This document shows positions 3,023-64,000 of a stretch of DNA of 64,000 bases, in pieces. This DNA is from Frankia nepalensis (lineage in GTDB: Bacteria > Actinomycetota > Actinomycetes > Frankiales > Frankiaceae). The position numbers and the translations under genes are program-made. Location of the stretch: the NCBI RefSeq assembly GCF_016786325.1, contig NZ_JADWYU010000145.1:1-64000 (forward strand). The letters run 5' to 3'. The notes under the pieces are model-generated. The model made no database searches, had not been told where the DNA came from, and saw only the letters and a program-made list of their open reading frames with translations. Positions within the stretch are counted from its first letter, which is position 1; each line of letters opens with the position of its first letter.

Positions 3023-5725
3023 TCACTCGTGCCGTGACGAGTGCGCGGTGTGCTGCTCGGTGAGGAGCTGCGCCCGGCGCCGCATGTCGCGCGGGGAGCG
3101 GCGGCGGTCGAGCCGGGTCTGCAGAAGCGACCGGGCGATCTCGGGCCGGTTGGCCTGGATGGCGCAGTAGATCGTGGTGTCCTCGACGATCTCGCGCTGC
3201 GCGGCGCTGCCCCCGAGCCGCTCGACGCCGGGCAGCGCGAGCAGCGCGTCGGTGGCCCGGTCGGGATCACCGTGCACGAGGTGCATCAGGGCGTCGGCCA
3301 GCGGCGCCACGGTGTCGGTGAACACCGCGCTGGTCCGGGCGGCCGCGGACCGGCGCAGTTGCGCGAGCCGGCGGCAGTCCCCCGCGGCGGCCAGCGCGAC
3401 CGCCGAGTGCAGCCCGACGAAGGGCGTCGGCGGATCGACGAGCAACGCGGCGGGAACCGTCTCCAGCACCGGTCCGAGTTCCACCGACGTCCAGGCGCCG
3501 GCCGCGACGCCGCGCCACAGCAGCGACGCCGAGTCGATCAGCGCGCGGACGCCGGAGACGGCCGGCGGCGAGAGCTGGGCCGAGAAACGCGCCCGGGCCG
3601 CGTTGTCGTCACCGAGCGCGAGTTCGTGCAGGGCCGCGTGCCAGGCGAAGTGCGCCCGCTGCGACGAGTCAGACCCCGACGTCGAGATCCAGGCGTCCAA
3701 CCAGGCCAGCCCGGCCTCGTGGTCACCGGTCTCGTAGTGGACGTGGGTCTTCGCGTGGACGGCGTGACCGGCGGTCGGTTCGACGGCCAGCGCCAGCGCG
3801 GCGAGTTCGGCCGCCTCGTCCCAGTTCTCCTGCTCCTGGCGGGTGAAGGCGAGCAGCCCCCGGTACCACCAGTCGTCGCGGTAGACGGCCGCCAGTCCTT
3901 CGACCAGGGCCCAGGCCTCGGCCGGGATCTCCGTCGCGCCGCTGAACGCGATCGTCGGCACGGCGATGCTGACGGCCAGGGCGTCTTCCGGGTACGCCTG
4001 GATGTAGCTCAGCAGGGCCGCGGCCGAACCGGCCCCCGGCTCGCGGATGCGGGCGGCGACGACCTCGATGAAGCGCCGCTCGCGCTCGTCGGCCCGGCCG
4101 GCGTGGCGTTGCGCGTCCCGCAGCGCCGTCTCCACGTCGACGTCGGCGCCCCACTCGGCACCGAGCAGCGCCAGCACCGCCTGCCCGAGGGCGAACTGGG
4201 GGTCGGCCGCGACCGCCTCGGCCACCAGCGTCTCGGCTCCGGACCGCACCCGCAGGATCCGTCCGAGCCCGGCGACGTAGCGATCGGCGGCCGCCGGGCT
4301 GGCGGTCAGCGGCAGGCCATAGGGGTCGCGCACCCGCTGGACGGTGCGTGGCCCGGGCAGGGCGGCCAGGACGGCGCGCGCGAGCGCGGCCGCCTGGCCG
4401 CGGATCTCGGGCATCGCCGTGCTCTCCCACAGCTCCCCCCGGCGGGGCGGCCCGATGGCCCAGATCGCGGGCCGGGGGCCGTCGGCCGGGACCAGCCGCC
4501 CGTTCTCGGTGGCGAAGCCCAGGTCCAGGCTGTCCGGGGTCGCGAGGCCCGAGGCGAGCAGGTTCATGACCAGGGGGTCATGGCTGGTCCGCACGCCGGC
4601 GCCCGCGCCGGTGCAGTTGATCACGGCCGCGGCGAGTACCCGGGAGCCGTCGCTCAGCGAGACCTCGACGCCGGCCGCGGTGTCCCGGGCGTCGACGACC
4701 CGCGCGGCGTGCGTGACCAGCGATCCCTCGGCGCGGCGCTGCTCCAGCCAGGCGTGGATGGCCGGGTCGACGCGGTGGCGGACCTGGTCCCAGCGCCGCA
4801 TCGTCGTGGCGACGAAGGTGGAACGGGCGGCGGCGTCCAGGCGTGACCACAGCTCGGCCGTCACCGGGCGCATCGCGTCCACGGCCCGCCGCCAGTCGCC
4901 ACCGGCCGCGCGGATGTGATCGAAGACAAGCCGGCGGGCCTGGGCGAGGCTGACCGGCCCGTCGGGCAGCCGTGGGGCGGCGAGCGGCGGCGCCGGGTCC
5001 AGCGCGTGGGGCAGCGGAAGCAGCCCGTGCCGCGAGGTCACGTGCAGGCGCACGCCGGCCCGGCTCCAGCGCTGGGCCATGTCGGCCATGGTCAGGCCCG
5101 AGCCGACGAGCAGCACCTCGCCGCCGGCCGGGACGCGAGGCTGGGCATCCGCCCGCCACGGATCACCGACGAACCGCGGCGACCGGGCGAGCGCCGGCGG
5201 AGCCCACGACGTCGTCGCGGCGCCGTGCCCGATCGCCAGGACGACGGCGTCGACCGGATGGCTGGTCCCGTCGTCGAGCGTCAGCCGCAGCCGGCTGCCG
5301 TGCCGGCGGACGCCCGTCGCGCGGGCCCGCACCTGCTCGCAGCGCACCCGCGTCGCGGCGCGCAGCGTCTCCTCCAGCGTGTGGCGGAGGTAGTCGGCAT
5401 AGAACTGGCGGGGCGCGAAACCACTGAAAGGAAAGTCGACCGCGACGTGCCGGCGAAGCCAGCGCAGGAAGTGCTGCGGGTCATCGTCGAATGCGCTCAT
5501 CTTCGCGGCCGGGACATTGAGCCGGTGCCGCGGATCCCGGGTCCGATAAGCCAGGCCCTCACCGAGGTCGTCCGGCTCGACGAGCAATATCGTGAACCTT
5601 CGGCCGGTAACCGCCGCGGTTCTTGCCAGCTGGGTGGCCGCGAGGCAACCGCTGGCCCCACCACCCACTACCGCGACGACCACCGGCGCGTTCATCGGGA
5701 CCGTCGACAGGATGTGTGCGGACAC
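3023..5725 (-). CDS. FAD/NAD(P)-binding protein fused to TPR (TTC38-like) domain
   Basis: 900-residue fusion. Residues about 12-470 form a flavin-dependent oxidoreductase-like domain of the FAD-NAD(P)-binding (NAD_binding_9/YdhS-like) type: VVAVVGGGASGCLAATQL is the dinucleotide-binding loop, followed by GEGLAYRTRDPRHRLNVPA and a second Rossmann loop (GGEVLLVGSGLTMADMA). From about residue 480 to the end it is helical with TPR-like repeats. Signatures such as AFTRQEQENWDEAAELA, HAVHAKTHVHYETGDHEAGL and HFAWHAALHELALGD are those of the TTC38-like family. The start is a GTG at 5725; an ATG ten codons later is possible. It is transcribed alone, convergent with the LivK-type gene. Substrate unknown; the fusion suggests flavin chemistry tethered to a protein-binding scaffold. 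Confidence 0.85.
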   Translation of the reverse strand: MSAHILSTVPMNAPVVVAVVGGGASGCLAATQLARTAAVTGRRFTILLVEPDDLGEGLAYRTRDPRHRLNVPAAKMSAFDDDPQHFLRWLRRHVAVDFPFSGFAPRQFYADYLRHTLEETLRAATRVRCEQVRARATGVRRHGSRLRLTLDDGTSHPVDAVVLAIGHGAATTSWAPPALARSPRFVGDPWRADAQPRVPAGGEVLLVGSGLTMADMAQRWSRAGVRLHVTSRHGLLPLPHALDPAPPLAAPRLPDGPVSLAQARRLVFDHIRAAGGDWRRAVDAMRPVTAELWSRLDAAARSTFVATTMRRWDQVRHRVDPAIHAWLEQRRAEGSLVTHAARVVDARDTAAGVEVSLSDGSRVLAAAVINCTGAGAGVRTSHDPLVMNLLASGLATPDSLDLGFATENGRLVPADGPRPAIWAIGPPRRGELWESTAMPEIRGQAAALARAVLAALPGPRTVQRVRDPYGLPLTASPAAADRYVAGLGRILRVRSGAETLVAEAVAADPQFALGQAVLALLGAEWGADVDVETALRDAQRHAGRADERERRFIEVVAARIREPGAGSAAALLSYIQAYPEDALAVSIAVPTIAFSGATEIPAEAWALVEGLAAVYRDDWWYRGLLAFTRQEQENWDEAAELAALALAVEPTAGHAVHAKTHVHYETGDHEAGLAWLDAWISTSGSDSSQRAHFAWHAALHELALGDDNAARARFSAQLSPPAVSGVRALIDSASLLWRGVAAGAWTSVELGPVLETVPAALLVDPPTPFVGLHSAVALAAAGDCRRLAQLRRSAAARTSAVFTDTVAPLADALMHLVHGDPDRATDALLALPGVERLGGSAAQREIVEDTTIYCAIQANRPEIARSLLQTRLDRRRSPRDMRRRAQLLTEQHTAHSSRHE

Positions 5726-11216: not shown

Positions 11217-11338
11217 CGTCGCGCCAGGTTCGCGGTGCCGTCAGACCACCCGCCGATGCGGGCGGCGCGGCGGGTGACCACGCCCTCGGCCCGGCTCAGC
11301 GACCTGGCGACCCGGCAAAGTCCTCAAGGAGCGTGCGT

Positions 11339-12184
11339 GTGGAACTCGGTGTCAGTGGCCTGAACGCGAAGGCGACGGTTGGCCCGGAGGCAACCGTCCG
11401 TCTGGCCCGGCTGGCCGAGGAGCTGGGATACCGCTCCTGGTGGGCCGGTGAGCATGTCGTCCTTCCCAGCCCCCGGGTGCCATCGTCGCCGATGGAGGCG
11501 ACGGACCCGATCCTCGATCCCCTGCTGCATCTCGCCTACGTGGCCGCCGTCACCCGGCGGCTCGAGCTGGGCACCGGGATCGTCATTCTTCCCCAGCGCA
11601 ACCCGCTGGTTCTCGCCAAGCAGGTGGCGAGCCTGGACGTGCTCAGCGGAGGGCGGGTGCTGCTCGGTGTCGGCGCCGGCTACCTGGAACCGGAGATGAC
11701 CGCCATCGGGGTGCCGATGGCCGGCCGAGGCCGCCGCACGGACGAGTACCTGGACGCGATGACCTCGCTCTGGCTGGATTCCCAGCCCGCCTACGACGGG
11801 CAGTACGTCGCGTTCGCGAACATCGACGCCCACCCACGGCCCGTGCGGCCGGGAGGCCCCCGCATCGTGATCGGTGGCCACAGCCAGGCCGCCTACCGCC
11901 GCGCGGTCGCTCGCGGGCACGGCTGGTTCGGCAACGGCACGGCCGCCGACCTCGTCACGCACCTGTCCGGGCTCGCCGCGGCGGCGACCGAGGTCGAGCG
12001 GCCGGCCCGGCTCGGCCGCCTGGAAACCATCTACATGCAGCTCGACCCGGTCGAGGTCACCGCCGCCGCGGCGCGCCGATACGCCGAACTCGGCGTCGAC
12101 CGCCTCCTTGTGTACCCGTTGCCCATCGAATCGGAAGGTGACGTCGCCGCCTTCCTGGAACGGCACGCCTCCCTCCCCCACTGA
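11339..12184 (+). CDS. LLM class F420-dependent oxidoreductase (TIGR03619-like)
   Basis: Luciferase-like TIM-barrel enzyme of about 281 residues. The GTG at 11339 is chosen because AAGGAG (11326-11331) is 7 bases away; the GTG two codons earlier is too close to it. Visible family features are ARLAEELGYRSWWAGEHVVLP near the start, LELGTGIVILPQRNPLVLAKQVASLDVLSGGR (strand and phosphate region, 25-30 residues apart), GVGAGYLEPEMTAIG and a C-terminal LGVDRLLVYPLP. The ILPQRNP pattern is typical of enzymes that use F420 and not FMN. It lies alone between the quinone-oxidoreductase gene and the ABC exporter. Substrate unknown. Confidence 0.88.
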   Translation: MELGVSGLNAKATVGPEATVRLARLAEELGYRSWWAGEHVVLPSPRVPSSPMEATDPILDPLLHLAYVAAVTRRLELGTGIVILPQRNPLVLAKQVASLDVLSGGRVLLGVGAGYLEPEMTAIGVPMAGRGRRTDEYLDAMTSLWLDSQPAYDGQYVAFANIDAHPRPVRPGGPRIVIGGHSQAAYRRAVARGHGWFGNGTAADLVTHLSGLAAAATEVERPARLGRLETIYMQLDPVEVTAAAARRYAELGVDRLLVYPLPIESEGDVAAFLERHASLPH

Positions 12185-12270
12185 CCGGCGCGGCGCCACA
12201 CGGCCCTTTGCCGCGAGCGACGCGGGAGGTGTCCGGCTACCGACGTTTTCCCCTTCATGCGTATCCGGGC

Positions 12271-12302
12271 TTGACCTTGACCCTGCGTCAGGGTTCCAGC
12301 AT
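12271..12302 (+). promoter_or_regulatory. MerR-type promoter of the ABC exporter
   Basis: A TTGACC -35 (12271-12276) is followed by the perfect dyad ACCCTG-CGT-CAGGGT (12280-12294) and a weak -10 (CAGCAT, 12297-12302) at an over-long 20-base spacing. A dyad inside an over-long spacer is the hallmark of MerR-activated promoters, and a MerR gene follows the transporter. Transcription would begin at about the ATG at 12309, so the message may be leaderless. Confidence 0.55.
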
Positions 12303-12308
12303 GGCGGC

Positions 12309-13265
12309 ATGACCGCTACCAACCCCGCGATCGAGGTTGCCGGGCTCACCAAGTCCTACGGCGACCACGCCGTATTGGACGGCGTCGACCTGACCGTCCC
12401 GGAGGGCACCGTCTACGCGCTCCTCGGGCCCAACGGCGCCGGCAAGACGACCATCGTCAACATTCTCTCCACCCTGCTGGCCCCCGGTGACGGCGAGATC
12501 CGCGTCGCCGGCTTCGACGTGCGCCGCGAGCCCGCCGGGGTGCGCGCCGCGATCGGTGTCACCGGGCAGTTCTCCGCGATCGACGAGCTGCTCACCGGCC
12601 GCGAGAACCTGCGGCTGATGGCCGACCTGGCGCACCTGGACCGAGCGGCCGCGACCACCGCCGTCACCGTGATGCTGGAACGCTTCGACCTCACCGACGC
12701 GGCCGACCGGCGGGCGCAGACCTACTCGGGCGGCATGAAGCGGCGGCTGGATCTGGCGATGACGCTCATCGCCCGGCCTCGGCTGATCTTCCTCGACGAG
12801 CCGACGTCCGGTCTCGACCCGCGCAGCCGTCGCGACCTGTGGGCGATCGTGCGCGAGCAGGTCGCCGACGGCGTGACCGTGCTGCTGACGACGCAGTACC
12901 TCGAGGAGGCCGACCAGCTGGCCGACCGGATCGGGGTTCTCGACAAGGGCCGCCTGGTCGCCGAGGGCACGGCCGCCGAGCTGAAGCGGCGGGTGCCCGG
13001 CGGGCACGTGTCGGTGCAGTTCACCGACGCCGCGGGGCTGGCCGCCGCGGCGGCGGCGCATCCCGAAGCCACCGCCGACGCCGAGGCGCTCACCCTGCAG
13101 GTCCCGGCCGACGGCAGCCTCGCCGGGCTGCGCCGCGTGCTCGACGGCCTCGACGACGACGGCGTCGCCGGGCTGACGGTCGAGTCCGCCGATCTCGACG
13201 ACGTGTTCCTCGCGCTCACCGGCCACGCGGCCGAGGCGCCCACCGCGCAGGAGATCCCCGCATGA
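12309..13265 (+). CDS. ABC exporter ATP-binding protein, DrrA type
   Basis: ATPase subunit of a multidrug-type ABC exporter, 318 residues. Walker A is LGPNGAGKTT near residue 45. The Q-loop region is GVTGQFSAIDELLTGRENL, the signature is YSGGMKRRLDLA, Walker B is LIFLDEPTSGLDPRSR and the H-loop position reads LLTTQYLEEAD, with Q in place of His as in DrrA/daunorubicin exporters. The C-terminal extension (about 230-318) is the usual DrrA tail. No Shine-Dalgarno precedes the ATG, fitting a leaderless message from the MerR-type promoter. It overlaps the permease gene by four bases (ATGA). Confidence 0.93.
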   Translation: MTATNPAIEVAGLTKSYGDHAVLDGVDLTVPEGTVYALLGPNGAGKTTIVNILSTLLAPGDGEIRVAGFDVRREPAGVRAAIGVTGQFSAIDELLTGRENLRLMADLAHLDRAAATTAVTVMLERFDLTDAADRRAQTYSGGMKRRLDLAMTLIARPRLIFLDEPTSGLDPRSRRDLWAIVREQVADGVTVLLTTQYLEEADQLADRIGVLDKGRLVAEGTAAELKRRVPGGHVSVQFTDAAGLAAAAAAHPEATADAEALTLQVPADGSLAGLRRVLDGLDDDGVAGLTVESADLDDVFLALTGHAAEAPTAQEIPA

Positions 13266-57968: not shown

Positions 57969-57990
57969 TTTTGTGCAGGATAGTACAAAA
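57969..57990. promoter_or_regulatory. TetR operator before the epoxide hydrolase
   Basis: TTTTGTGC (57969-57976) and GTACAAAA (57983-57990) form a dyad with 6-base spacer and 7 of 8 pairs. An extra copy of TTTTGTAC lies at 57928-57935, inside the start of the divergent TetR gene. Confidence 0.6.
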
Positions 57991-58010
57991 CTTGACCGCA
58001 GGGAGTCCCG

Positions 58011-59163
58011 ATGTCGTTCCGCCCCCATGTCCCCGACGAGACGCTGGACCGGATCCGCGCCCGTGTGCGCGACGATCGTCGACGACGGCGTGGGCGGGTG
58101 GCGACACGGCACGGACTGGGCCTTCCTCGAACGCCTCGCGCACCGCTGGGTCGACGGCTACGACTGGCGGGCCACCGAGAAACGGATCAACCGCTTCGCC
58201 AACGACCGCGTCCCGGTGGACGGCGCCAACGTGCACTACCTACGGGAGCCGGGTTCCGGGCCCTCCCCGCGGCCGCTGCTGATCCTGCACGGCTGGCCGT
58301 ACTCCTTCCTCGGCTACCTCGACGTCGTCGAACGCCTCGCCCACCCGGAGCGCTTCGGCGGGCAGGTCGCCGACGCCTTCGACGTCGTGCTCATCTCCCA
58401 GCCCGGCACCGGCTTCTCCGACCCGCCAGCGCGCCCGAAGAGCCCTCGCCAACTCGCGGAGGTCTACCACCGCGTCATGCGCGACGAACTCGGCTACCAG
58501 CGGTATCTCGTCGACGGCGGCGACCAGGGTGCCGTCGCCGGCGGATTCCTTGCGCTCGACCACCCCGACAGCGTGATCGGCCTCCACCAGAGCATGCTCC
58601 TGCCTCGGCAGCCCGAAGCTCCGCTCGGCTACGGCCTCACCAACGCCGACGCCAGCGCCGCAGAACGCGACTACGTCCAGGCAGAGGCGGCGCGGTTCCA
58701 ACGCGACGGTGCCTACTTCCTCCTGCAAATGACCCGTCCCGAGTCGCTCGCGCCCGCGCTCACCGACTCCCCGGTCGGACTCGCCGCCTGGATTGTCGAG
58801 AAGTACCACTCCTGGAGCGACCGCCGCGCACGCACCTTCGAGGAGATCTTCAGCCTCGACCAGCTGCTCGACGAGATCATGCTCTACCTGGTGACCGACA
58901 GCTTCGCGACGTCGCTCTGGTCCTACGCGGCGCTCCAGACCGATCCGTCAGCCCTGCCGCCCGACATCCGGATCACTGTGCCCACCGGAATCACCGGCTG
59001 GCCGGACCCCTGGAACCCGCCACCGCCGCGCGCGTTCGCCGAACGCTCCCGCGCCAACATCGTCCAGTGGACACAGCCACCGCGCGGCGGGCACTTCCCC
59101 TTCTACGAGGAGCCGGACCTCTACGTCGATGATCTCCGGGCATTCGGCCGCGCTCTGCGGTGA
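58011..59163 (+). CDS. Epoxide hydrolase (EHN family), frameshifted near the N terminus
   Basis: Alpha/beta-hydrolase epoxide hydrolase of about 383 residues if read through. The ATG at 58011 behind GGGAG gives the normal family start (SFRPHVPDETLDRIRARVRDD). The next expected text, VDDGVGGWRHGTDWAFLERL, lies in another frame, so one extra base is present between about 58073 and 58085. Downstream is intact: PLLILHGWPYSFLGYLDVV (oxyanion HGWP), YLVDGGDQGAVAGGF (nucleophile Asp in GGDQG), WTQPPRGGHFPFYE (catalytic His). The rest could be made only from an internal start such as GTG. Regulated by the divergent TetR. Confidence 0.8.
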
Positions 59164-59203: not shown

Positions 59204-59252
59204 CCGAGGACCGAGGACCGAGGACCGAGGACCGAGGACCGAGGACCGAGGG
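59204..59252. repeat. Seven 7-base tandem repeats
   Basis: CCGAGGA occurs six times exactly, followed by one copy ending in G. It lies between the convergent epoxide hydrolase and CoA ligase genes; period 7 rules out a coding repeat. Confidence 0.9.
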
Positions 59253-60911: not shown

Positions 60912-61930
60912 GAGGTCTCCGGGGGCGGCGAGGGCGCCGGGGCCGCGCGGTCGGTGCCGTCCAGGGGTGCGGTGCCGTCCGGGGGCACGACGGCCGGCGG
61001 TCCTGGCGCGGTGGCCCCGTCGGTGAGGAGCCCGGCCGAGATCCGTTCGAGGACGCGCGCCGGCGAAGGCGGCGGGACGAACTGCACGGCGACGTGGTTG
61101 GCGCCGGCGGCGTACTGCGCTTCCACGCGGGCTCGCAGGGCGGTCGGGGTGTCCTGGACCACGAGGGCGTCGATGAGGGCGTCGCTGACCGTGGCGAGGT
61201 CGGCGTCGTCGAATCCGCACCGGCGGAGGCTCTGCTGGTAGTTGGGCATGCCGAGGCAGAGCCCGAGGTAGTCCCGGAGCTTCGCGCTGGTCCGGGGATC
61301 TTCGCCGCCGACCGCGACCATCTGGGAGGGCGCGATCCACGGGCTGTCGCCGACGGCCGCGCGCGCGCCCGCGGTGTGGGTGACCGGGCAGAAGTAGGTG
61401 TGCAGGCCACCGGTGGCGGTGGCGGCGAGTTCGATCATCCGAGGTCCGAGCGCGCCGAGGAACAGCGGCGGCAGGGTGCGCCCGCCGACGGCCGCGTTCA
61501 TCGCGCCCACGTAGTCGCGCAGGGCGGTCAGGGGCCGGGAGTAGGCGCCGCCGCGGGTCTCGGCGAGATGCCGGTGACTCGCGCCGAGGCCGAGGACGAA
61601 CCGTCCGGGGAACGCCTCGTGCAGGGTCGACGCGACCGCGACCATGGCCTCCGGGTCGCGGGCGTGGATGGTCGCGACGCCGAGTGCCACGGTGAGCGTC
61701 TGGGTGGCCGTCAGGTAGAGGGCGGCGCGGACGAACGGGTCGACACCGCTGTACTCCTGCAGCCAGACCGTCCCGACGCCGGCCTGTTCGAGGTCGCGAA
61801 CGGCGGCGGCCGCCTCGGCGCTGGGCAGGCGGTCGAGGAATCCTCCCCACAGCCCGACGCCCGTGGGCAGCCCGGACCGGGGGGCGCTCGCCGGCGTGGC
61901 CTGCCGCTTCGGGCTTTCGGCGGGCGTCAT
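60908..61930 (-). CDS. LLM class F420-dependent oxidoreductase (TIGR03620-like)
   Basis: 340-residue luciferase-like enzyme. The start reads GVGLWGGFLDRLPSAEAAAAV, then VGTVWLQEYSGVDPFVRAALYL, LTVALGVATIHARDPEAMVAVASTL, FVLGLGASHRHLAETRGG and PLFLGALGPRMIELAA, with a Pro-rich C-terminal tail. The IHARD pattern and FLGALGPRM match TIGR03620 F420 enzymes. It overlaps both neighbours by four bases (ATGA), so it belongs to the catabolic operon and probably oxidises the pathway's intermediate. Confidence 0.93.
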   Translation of the reverse strand: MTPAESPKRQATPASAPRSGLPTGVGLWGGFLDRLPSAEAAAAVRDLEQAGVGTVWLQEYSGVDPFVRAALYLTATQTLTVALGVATIHARDPEAMVAVASTLHEAFPGRFVLGLGASHRHLAETRGGAYSRPLTALRDYVGAMNAAVGGRTLPPLFLGALGPRMIELAATATGGLHTYFCPVTHTAGARAAVGDSPWIAPSQMVAVGGEDPRTSAKLRDYLGLCLGMPNYQQSLRRCGFDDADLATVSDALIDALVVQDTPTALRARVEAQYAAGANHVAVQFVPPPSPARVLERISAGLLTDGATAPGPPAVVPPDGTAPLDGTDRAAPAPSPPPETS

Positions 61931-62790
61931 CGTGCCGGGGTGAGGTCGAGGACCGTCGCCGCGTTGTGGCGCAGGAACTTCGGCCAGACGTCGGCCTTGA
62001 ACGGCACCGTGTCGAGTTCGGTGAAGGTCCGCTCCAGCTCGATGCCGAACGGGTAGTAGCCGCCGTAGATGATCTTGTCGGCGCCGCGGGTGTTCGCGTA
62101 GTCGATGATCGCCTTTGGGTAGTGCTTCGGCGCGAACGCCGTCGTGGAGTAGTAGAGGTTCGGCCATTTCAGCATCAGCTTCACGGCTAGATTCACCCAC
62201 GGTTCGGCACCGTGGCGCATCACGAACCGCAACTCGGGGAAGTCGTAGCAGACCTGGTCGACGAGCTCGACGCGCTGCGCGGCCATCGGGACACGCGGTC
62301 CGGGTACGCCGACGGCCACGAACACGGGCAGGCCGAGTTCGACGCAGGTCGCGTAGATCGGGTAGGCGCGGCGGTCGTCGATCGGCACCCGCGGTGACAC
62401 CCCCGACGGGAACAGCGTCACGGCCCGCAGGCCGTACTCGTCCACCGCCTGGCGGATCGCGCGGACCGCTCCCATGACGTCGTTCGGGTCGACGCCGAGG
62501 GAGGCGGCGAAGCGCGCCGGGTGCTTGCGCAGCGCGGTCCTCGCGGTCTCGCTGGTGAGGTTGACCAGCGCCAGCTCGATGCCGTGGGTGTCCATCTTCG
62601 CGAGCGTCTCGTCGATCGCCTGCTCGTCGGAGACGTCGCCCGGCCGGTTGGCCGGCATGTCCTTGAACATGTAGCCGATGGTGTTGTCCGCCCGCCCGCG
62701 ATCACGCAGCCCGGCGATGCGCGGGATGTTGCTGGTGGACCGGAAGCCCATCAGGGTGTCGATCACCTTGACGTCGCGCGGTCGGGTCAT
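61927..62790 (-). CDS. Amidohydrolase_2-fold protein lacking usual metal ligands
   Basis: 287 residues of the amidohydrolase_2 (ACMSD-like decarboxylase/hydrolase) family, with AIDETLAKMDTHGIELALVN, FAASLGVDPNDVMGAVRAI, LRFVMRHGAEPWVNLAVKL and KFLRHNAATVLDL at the end. The N-terminal HxH metal motif is absent (VKVIDTLMGFRS), and the late Asp motif (GSDxPH) reads YGGYYPFGIE. Only the middle His remains, so catalysis may be metal-free or the protein may be a partner subunit for the canonical paralogue at the right edge. Overlaps both neighbours by four bases. Confidence 0.88.
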   Translation of the reverse strand: MTRPRDVKVIDTLMGFRSTSNIPRIAGLRDRGRADNTIGYMFKDMPANRPGDVSDEQAIDETLAKMDTHGIELALVNLTSETARTALRKHPARFAASLGVDPNDVMGAVRAIRQAVDEYGLRAVTLFPSGVSPRVPIDDRRAYPIYATCVELGLPVFVAVGVPGPRVPMAAQRVELVDQVCYDFPELRFVMRHGAEPWVNLAVKLMLKWPNLYYSTTAFAPKHYPKAIIDYANTRGADKIIYGGYYPFGIELERTFTELDTVPFKADVWPKFLRHNAATVLDLTPAR

Positions 62791-63722
62791 GCTGGCCGCT
62801 CCCCCTGTCTCGTCTCGTCGGCGGGCGTCTCGCTGGAGCCGGGGAGGGTGAACCGGGCGTGCGCTGGGTCGAGCCCGGCGAAGGCGGGCGGGCGGCGCTG
62901 GCGCCAGCTGCGGACGCCCTCGGTGAAGTCCGCCGACGCCAGCGCCGCCTCCAGGTAGGCGTCGGCACGGGCGACCGCGGCGGGCAGCGTGGAGGTCAGG
63001 TCCGTGTAGGTCTGGCGTTTGACGACGCCCATCGCGGCCGGCGAGCAGCGGGTCGCCAGTCCCGTCGCGTAGTCCCACGCCGCGGCCAGCAGTTCGCCGT
63101 CGTCGACGACCCTGTTGGCCAGGCCGAGGCGTTCGGCCTCGGCGGCGCGGACCAGGCGTCCGGACAGCAGCAGGTCGTTGGCGACGCCGAGCCCGACGAT
63201 GCGGGGCAGCAGCCAGGTCATGCCCAGCTCGGCGATCAGGCCGCGGCGGACGAAGGCGGTGGCGAACTTCGCCGACGAGCCGGCGAACCGCACGTCGCAG
63301 AACAGCGCCAGCTGCATCCCCACGCCGAAGCAGGCCCCGTTGACCGCCGCCACGACGGGTTTGGCGATCGTCATCGCCGCCCAGTACGCCGGCCGGGCCG
63401 CGTCGATCTCGTAGGAGCCGGCGTCCGCGACGTTGTCGAGGCTGCCGCCGTCGGCGCCGACGCAGAAGTCCGGGCCGGCGCCGGTCACCACCAGGGCGCG
63501 CACCCCGGGGTCGAGGGCCAGCCGGTCGAGCGCGGCGAAGAACCGCTGGCCCAGCCGGGGAGTCCAGGCGTTGCCTGGCGGCCGGGTCAGGGTGACCGTG
63601 GCGACCTGGCCCGCGATCTCCACCTCGACGGTGCCGTCCTCGGCCCACGGCGACCCGCCCGGCGTGGCGGCTGCCGCGGGAACCGTCGCGGCGGGCCCCG
63701 GCGCCGCCTGCCCCGCGGTCAC
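62787..63722 (-). CDS. Enoyl-CoA hydratase/isomerase family protein
   Basis: 311-residue crotonase-fold enzyme, GTG start overlapping the preceding amidohydrolase stop (GTGA). Family signs: VATVTLTRPPGNAWTPRLGQRF, VVTGAGPDFCVGADGGSL (first oxyanion strand), KPVVAAVNGACFGVGMQLALFCDVRFA (second), RRGLIAELGMTWLLPRIVG. Its fit to hydration, isomerisation or ring opening of a CoA ester cannot be decided. Placed between two amidohydrolases in the operon. Confidence 0.93.
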   Translation of the reverse strand: MTAGQAAPGPAATVPAAAATPGGSPWAEDGTVEVEIAGQVATVTLTRPPGNAWTPRLGQRFFAALDRLALDPGVRALVVTGAGPDFCVGADGGSLDNVADAGSYEIDAARPAYWAAMTIAKPVVAAVNGACFGVGMQLALFCDVRFAGSSAKFATAFVRRGLIAELGMTWLLPRIVGLGVANDLLLSGRLVRAAEAERLGLANRVVDDGELLAAAWDYATGLATRCSPAAMGVVKRQTYTDLTSTLPAAVARADAYLEAALASADFTEGVRSWRQRRPPAFAGLDPAHARFTLPGSSETPADETRQGERPA

Positions 63723-64000
63723 AGGCCGAGGAGCGCGGCGGAGTTGTCCCGCATGATCCGAGCCCTGGTGGCGGCGTCGAGCGAGGCGATCTCCTTCTCG
63801 AACTGGAGCGGTTCGGCCAGGCCCTCGGCGTGCGGCCAGTCCGACCCGAACAGGACGTGGTCGGCGCCGATGAGCTCGACCAGCTCGGCGAGGTCGTCCT
63901 CGTAGTAGGGCGCCACCCACACGTGCTGGCGAAACGCCTCGACCGGGTCGCCGGAGAAGCTCTCCGGGGACTGGTTGGCGTATTTCTTCAGCAGCCGTAG
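63719..64000 (-). CDS. Amidohydrolase_2 family protein, C-terminal part (runs off the window)
   Basis: The frame is open to the window edge; the visible 93 residues begin LRLLKKYANQSPESF and include VWVAPYYEDDLAELVELIG, DHVLFGSDWPHAEGLAEP (metal-binding Asp in GSDWPH) and ARIMRDNSAALLGL, the usual end of amidohydrolase_2 proteins. This copy keeps the metal Asp missing in the paralogue at 61927. First visible gene of the operon; the real 5' end and promoter lie beyond 64000. Confidence 0.9.
   Translation of the reverse strand, partial: LRLLKKYANQSPESFSGDPVEAFRQHVWVAPYYEDDLAELVELIGADHVLFGSDWPHAEGLAEPLQFEKEIASLDAATRARIMRDNSAALLGL

Follow-up and report, generated by a model that had tools for sequence, protein, structure and literature searches.

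An Operon Encoding Two Paralogs of the Amidohydrolase Family

The window analyzed here is a stretch of 64,000 nucleotides at the start of contig NZ_JADWYU010000145.1 of Frankia nepalensis (assembly GCF_016786325.1; genome size 10.7 Mb). Its end cuts through a minus-strand operon that encodes two paralogous proteins of the Amidohydro_2 family, which we name AHS and AHL. AHS lacks the metal ligands of its relatives, and AHL carries the complete residue signature of the ARO class of dinuclear enzymes (PMC10811679, PMC10401708). We tentatively propose that AHL is an oxygenase of this class whose substrate is a CoA thioester, and that AHS is a metal-free subunit that partners it.

The operon outruns the window. 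Extension of the contig past position 64,000 revealed the remainder of AHL (start at 64897), ECH1 and LLM1, followed by a divergent TetR gene (Table 1), and the order of transcription is LLM1, ECH1, AHL, ECH2, AHS, LLM2, ACS. This bears out the sequence-only reading of the window, which had taken the operon to continue beyond 64,000 and had described two paralogs flanking an enoyl-CoA hydratase (ECH2), followed by an F420-dependent LLM enzyme (LLM2) and an acyl-CoA ligase (ACS) with four-base overlaps. The overlaps are exact (GTGA or ATGA) at AHL/ECH2, ECH2/AHS, AHS/LLM2 and LLM2/ACS, and LLM1/ECH1 overlap by GTGA too. Five junctions of the operon thus overlap, and a gap of 66 bases separates ECH1 from AHL. 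Judged by gene order, it is supported that AHS and AHL belong to one operon, and the four-base overlaps argue against their independent expression. In Frankia sp. AgB1.9 the order of AHS, AHL and ECH2 is kept and the proteins are 85–90% identical; the ratio of nonsynonymous to synonymous substitution rates (dN/dS) against this strain is 0.25 for AHS and 0.16 for AHL, which places AHS under purifying selection.

AHL Carries the Signature of a Dinuclear Oxygenase

AHL is a PF04909 TIM barrel (107.4 bits against a cut-off of 26.4). Its ligand set consists of D10 and H12 (DxH), H227, E290, D353 and H356 plus the acid E358, and the GSDWPH motif seen earlier in the window is part of GSDWPHAEG. There is no HxH in AHL; it has DxH, the form found in AROs. 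The full set is conserved in 27 of 27 AHL-type proteins examined first and in 54 of 54 examined later, where D8 and E15 are conserved as well. AHL combines these sequence and fold features of an ARO: the barrel, six ligands in the pattern D-x-H/H/E/D/H, and an acid two residues past the last His. Ligand positions were mapped to PtmU3 by profile alignment and to AibH2 by its published ligand list, D25xH27, H211, E265, D337 and H340 with the acid D342; the acid in PtmU3 is Glu313, and conservation of such an acid is reported for binuclear members alone (PMC7782822).

Profile matches of AHL are 4dzi (E 1e-152), PtmU3 (2e-36), DitZ, SfbO and AibH1/H2. By fold, the AHL model matches with Z scores of 48.1 for 4dzi, 31.4 for PtmU3, 29.7 for DitZ, 28.2 for SfbO and 27.5 for AibH2, and at most 26.4 for mononuclear decarboxylases; several adjacent rows of this ranking are tied, with PtmU3 5 above the decarboxylases. 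The 4dzi structure (MAP2389c of Mycobacterium avium subsp. paratuberculosis; 59% identity over 365 aligned residues) belongs to the family of AHL and is a structural-genomics entry with no stated function. PtmU3, a diiron monooxygenase of platensimycin biosynthesis, is the closest characterized relative by both sequence and model and has the motif GSDxPHxEG in common with AHL, but its identity to AHL is 29% over the structural match, its setting is biosynthetic, and it is reported to function without binding an auxiliary subunit (PMC10401708). Since AHL has the seven-residue ARO signature and AROs come first among the characterized fold matches, O2-dependent oxygenation is more likely than hydrolysis or decarboxylation, and we consider it quite probable, from sequence and model, that AHL is a dinuclear oxygenase.

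AHS Is a Conserved Barrel Without Metal Ligands

A genome scan for relatives of AHS gave 514 encoding stretches, of which the best 80 were kept, and the family alignment comprises 84 members from Frankia, Mycobacterium, Acidimicrobiia, Sphingomonadaceae, Myxococcales and Deltaproteobacteria records. In AHS, strand beta-1 reads IDTLMGF (no HxH), beta-5 reads FVAVG (no His), and GGYYPF takes the place of SDxPH. At position 13, the 83 of 84 aligned members with a residue there all have M, L or A. Position 160 in beta-5 is never His (A in 47, V in 34, T in 3), and Tyr245 occupies the place of the beta-8 ligand Asp throughout (Table 1). The absence of both HxH and GSD that had been noticed in the window is thus a property of all 84 aligned members in several phyla. 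Every metal-ligand position of the mononuclear relatives is replaced in AHS, and the beta-6 His alone is left. It has neither the HxH, beta-5 His and beta-8 Asp of ACMSD-like mononuclear hydrolases and decarboxylases nor the AibH1-type mononuclear site (D, H, H, E, D), which is absent from 84 of 84. Ligands at shifted positions, which would have spoken against a ligand-free protein, were found neither in the 84 sequences nor in the alignments with ligand-bearing relatives.

Because all aligned members lack the ligands, across several phyla, AHS appears from its sequences to be an old, conserved family rather than a decayed copy. A decaying pseudogene was rejected on account of its dN/dS and the family-wide constraint. 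Mean column identity is 60% for AHS and 61% for AHL, and R166, R192-H193-G194, W198 and Y245 are invariant in all 84 members. The AHS model (pLDDT 91.5) is nearest to 3irs, the uncharacterized and distant protein BB4693 of Bordetella bronchiseptica (Z 27.3, 26% identity, profile E 9e-29), in which SDxP is likewise replaced in the alignment (AYP); 3cjp, LigJ and ACMSD-type barrels come next. Mononuclear enzymes of the ACMSD, LigJ and gamma-resorcylate type have the fold of AHS (Z about 20) and the beta-6 His, but all their metal ligands are missing in AHS. An orthologue of AibH1 was considered and rejected: the AHS profile returns 7 PDB sequences (E 1e-3) and AibH1 is not among them.

Amidohydrolases have expanded greatly in this genome, with 73 Amidohydro_2 matches. 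A separate census started from 79 matches; merging by C-terminal identity left 65, and removal of one duplicate AHS frame left 64. Compared with the 73 it missed some fragments. The dinuclear-oxygenase motif SDxPHx[DE] occurs in 42 of the 64 proteins, 36 of which also have DxHxx[ED] near the N-terminus. Ligand loss among the paralogs is graded: C220 has all ligands, C341 has no HxH and Asn in place of Asp, a small protein that we call AHSd (C133, C36) keeps the beta-8 Asp only, and AHS keeps none. AHSd is part of a second module on contig C133, where AHL and AHSd (80288-82543; L168 6289-8544) are preceded by a crotonase and two acyl-CoA dehydrogenases and followed by another crotonase with two more acyl-CoA dehydrogenases; the flanks, each a crotonase with an acyl-CoA dehydrogenase pair, look as if a block had been duplicated.

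AHS-Like and AHL-Like Genes Are Recurrent Neighbors

An AHL-type gene is present in 27 of the 80 AHS loci, and in 18 of the 34 with at least 7.4 kb of sequence on both sides. Six loci have AHS and AHL 6–93 bases apart in either order, in other loci the two are divergent neighbors, and in most mycobacteria AHS is followed by a double acyl-CoA dehydrogenase and then AHL. The pair recurs, in both orders and divergently, in Actinomycetia, Acidimicrobiia, Sphingomonadaceae, Myxococcota and Deltaproteobacteria records. In 11 genomes, AHS or AHSd lies within 5 kb of 8 of 33 AHL genes where 0.21 would be expected (Poisson 8e-11, kinship ignored), and a mirror-tree comparison over 10 lineages gave a Mantel r of 0.64, likewise without regard to kinship or the species tree, which lends the pairing weak support. 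Among 246 genomes of the phylum, strict thresholds yielded AHS in at least 8, AHL in at least 11 and both in at least 6, with AHS only in 2 and AHL only in 5; the presence counts are lower bounds, since the scans scored at most 9 AHS and 7 AHL candidates per genome. Three genomes of one family, with no AHS at the strict threshold, have AHSd about 1.8 kb from AHL. Acyl-CoA dehydrogenases (26 of 80), acyl-CoA ligases (25 of 80) and short-chain dehydrogenases/reductases (26 of 80) are also found in AHS loci. This recurrence in distant bacteria makes a heteromer of AHS and AHL plausible and hints at a little-known type of oxygenase that is assisted by a metal-free protein. A literature search, with subscription papers mostly outside its reach, returned no paper describing the AHS–AHL pair and none on DitZ or Hopanoidivorans.

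At two Myxococcota/Myxococcales loci that also contain AHS, a gene for a DUF7700-type protein (L139 8923-9474 and L088 2839-3390) directly precedes another amidohydrolase-like gene; the Pfam match to DUF7700 is that of L139, and L088 falls in the same cluster.

Other Genes of the Operon and Its Surroundings

Family models label both paralogs amidohydrolases, and neither has a match to an NCBIfam model. For ECH2 the nearest solved structure by sequence is 3qre, EchA12_1 (E 6e-62). A gene of the epoxide-hydrolase type (57973-59163) is convergent with the operon end, and between the two a seven-base tandem repeat of CCGAGGA (59204-59251) has 6.9 copies at 100% match. In the sister operons L063 and L201 a second AHL-type gene (11329-12522 and 3378-4571, respectively) adjoins the acyl-CoA ligase, and in the present genome the epoxide-hydrolase-type gene stands in its place.

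Table 1. Position of the operon genes, the divergent regulator and two diagnostic sites on the contig.
Feature	Position	Strand	Description
LLM1	66849-65794	-	F420-dependent LLM enzyme; TIGR03617 452.1 bits, passes cut-off of 278.15
ECH1	65797-64964	-	Crotonase fold; closest to dienoyl-CoA isomerases (1dci, E 1e-57)
AHL	64897-63719 (63719-64000, C-terminal part inside window)	-	392 aa; predicted dinuclear-oxygenase-type Amidohydro_2
ECH2	63722-62787	-	Enoyl-CoA hydratase/isomerase with crotonase fold, flanked by AHL and AHS; PF00378 153.9 bits
AHS	62790-61927	-	287 aa; Amidohydro_2, PF04909 104.1 bits; without metal ligands
LLM2	61930-60908	-	F420-dependent LLM-class oxidoreductase; TIGR03620 222.6 bits, passes cut-off of 219.8
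ACS	60911-59334	-	Acyl-CoA ligase, last gene of operon; PF00501 255.6 bits and PF13193
TetR gene	66919-67566		Divergent from operon
AHL D353-W-P-H356-A-E358	63824..63841	-	Two metal ligands and the acid marking binuclear centers, motif GSDWPHAEG; D, H and E each in 54/54
AHS Tyr245	62056..62058	-	At place of beta-8 ligand Asp (GSD to GGY), aligned with AHL Asp353; Tyr in 84/84

Proposed Function and Alternatives

In the pathway that we propose, ACS would turn an acid into its CoA ester, which would be further processed by the two crotonase-fold enzymes and the two F420-dependent LLM enzymes. The CoA-ester setting is deduced from ACS, the crotonases, the acyl-CoA dehydrogenases found at sister loci, and the use of CoA-ligated substrates reported for PtmU3 (PMC7782822). 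AHL would be the catalytic subunit, an O2-dependent dinuclear (Fe/Fe or Mn/Fe) ARO-class oxygenase acting on the CoA-tethered acid, which is probably polycyclic or terpenoid-like; the paired acyl-CoA dehydrogenases and the analogy with PtmU3 point to a polycyclic compound. AHS, a TIM-barrel paralog that belongs to another branch and has lost all metal ligands, would be the non-catalytic partner of AHL, as AibH1 is for AibH2, and would either stabilize the metal loop or contribute to the path of the substrate or of electrons. For electron supply, the F420 enzymes are candidates by position alone. Taken whole, the assignment of AHL as an ARO oxygenase on a CoA thioester and of AHS as its metal-free partner has a little less than an even chance of being right; given that AHL is a dinuclear oxygenase, the partner role of AHS is somewhat better than an even bet.

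The model for such a pair is the 2-aminoisobutyrate hydroxylase AibH1H2 of Rhodococcus wratislaviensis, a heterotetramer of paralogs in which AibH1 is non-catalytic (PMC7782822, PMC10401708, PMC12141560). Both systems have two paralogous PF04909 barrels, one with a dinuclear site (predicted in the case of AHL), and AibH2 and AHL agree in all six ligands and the acid. AibH1, however, is reported to keep a mononuclear metal site and AHS keeps no metal ligand; AHS stems from another branch, whereas the AHL profile finds both AibH1 and AibH2. Rieske and reductase genes are part of the aib operon but not of the AHS/AHL operon, and the aib substrate is a free amino acid instead of the presumed CoA ester. 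AHS/AHL may therefore work like AibH1H2 yet would not be a member of that pair, because the partner lacks the AibH1 metal site and belongs to a different branch. A link to a known bile-salt cluster was also considered, since in Caenibius tardaugens an amidohydrolase encoded next to acyl-CoA dehydrogenases is reported to be induced (PMC12882949), but AHS and AHL could not be distinguished there and it was not used.

Several observations weigh against the proposed function. Firstly, none of the seven classified operon genes encodes a Rieske protein or ferredoxin, so that the small Rieske protein of AibH-type three-component systems is missing, and such a gene is reported to accompany about 90% of AibH2-like genes (PMC10401708). 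Secondly, 4dzi was solved with one chain type, which shows that AHL-type proteins can stand without a partner. Thirdly, the pairing is incomplete. No AHL-type neighbor was seen in 53 of the 80 AHS loci, many of them short-flanked, and no AHS-type neighbor for 14 of the 54 AHL-type proteins in the stretch examined; in the present genome AHL lies within 5 kb of one of three AHS genes, and G165 and G218 have AHS without an AHL-type gene (best AHL-profile matches E 7e-34 and 3e-30). The eight paired AHL genes come from five genomes in two families, and neither the Poisson nor the Mantel statistic takes ancestry into account. Three AHS genes stand in tandem in some actinobacterial genomes or metagenome-assembled genomes (L135 1665-4351, L138 5863-8738, G072 C1 1443046-1445729). 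With these triplets, each gene occurring without the other, and the missing Rieske gene, a fixed AHS–AHL pair is not established. Lastly, the invariant residues of AHS are spread over both barrel faces, with 17 of 49 on the catalytic face (80 of 287 positions, P 0.29) and 18 of 49 on the opposite face (P 0.16), and without significant catalytic-face enrichment they were not taken as the sign of a retained active site.

In the alternative that survives best, AHS would be no subunit but an enzyme in its own right that needs no metal, such as a hydrolase, hydratase, isomerase or lyase. It would act in sequence with AHL in the same CoA-ester pathways, and AHL would be a stand-alone oxygenase. The invariance of R192, H193, R166, Y245 and W198 in 84 of 84 members and a column identity as high as that of AHL would fit an enzyme, as would the tandem triplets, the loci with AHS but no AHL, the further CoA-ester and short-chain dehydrogenase/reductase genes in AHS loci, and the existence of cofactor-free PF04909 enzymes (PMC10811679). 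Nevertheless, AHS has all metal-ligand positions of the mononuclear relatives replaced and keeps the beta-6 His alone, its invariant residues do not cluster on the catalytic face, and AHSd, a small family that is degenerate in a different way, also adjoins AHL, for which a partner role is the better fit. We regard a separate enzyme as a serious possibility, though clearly below an even chance.

It is improbable that AHL is a mononuclear enzyme of the ACMSD/LigW kind which, alone or as part of a heteromer, hydrolyzes or decarboxylates a CoA thioester in a metal-dependent way. AHL does belong to PF04909 and its model does match decarboxylases with Z up to 26.4, but it has Glu290 at the place of the catalytic His of ACMSD-type enzymes, as well as His356 of the second site and the acid Glu358, whose conservation is reported for binuclear members only, and AROs lead its characterized matches by profile and fold. 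From the sequence-only interpretation, the ligand-free paralog, its ligand-bearing counterpart and the CoA-ester genes in one operon stand, the heteromer is made plausible by the recurrent pairing, and the proposed hydrolase or decarboxylase chemistry is probably wrong. That the adjacency of AHS and AHL reflects mere shared pathway clustering is very unlikely: it would suit a genome with dozens of amidohydrolase genes, in which two of seven AHL genes among the matches listed have an AHS-type gene within 5 kb, but not the excess of paired AHL genes over expectation or the range of taxa and gene arrangements in which the pair is found.

Significance

A broader reading, which we consider rather unlikely at present, is that AHL and AHS represent a widespread two-barrel oxygenase, in which a dinuclear O2-activating barrel would depend on an obligate, ligand-stripped partner, whose task would be to shape the metal loop or to bind the CoA substrate. 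The partner would have been recruited separately from a mononuclear amidohydrolase branch, and AHS, with no ligand, and AHSd, with one, would both have taken this role beside the AHL family. As for the proposed function of the Frankia operon, AHL bears the signature of a recently described O2-activating class with very few characterized members. If it is true, hydrolase annotations across actinobacteria would conceal CoA-thioester oxygenases, as the number of SDxPHx[DE] proteins in this genome illustrates, and the question why AibH2 needs AibH1 could be put to the test on a natural partner that itself carries no metal.

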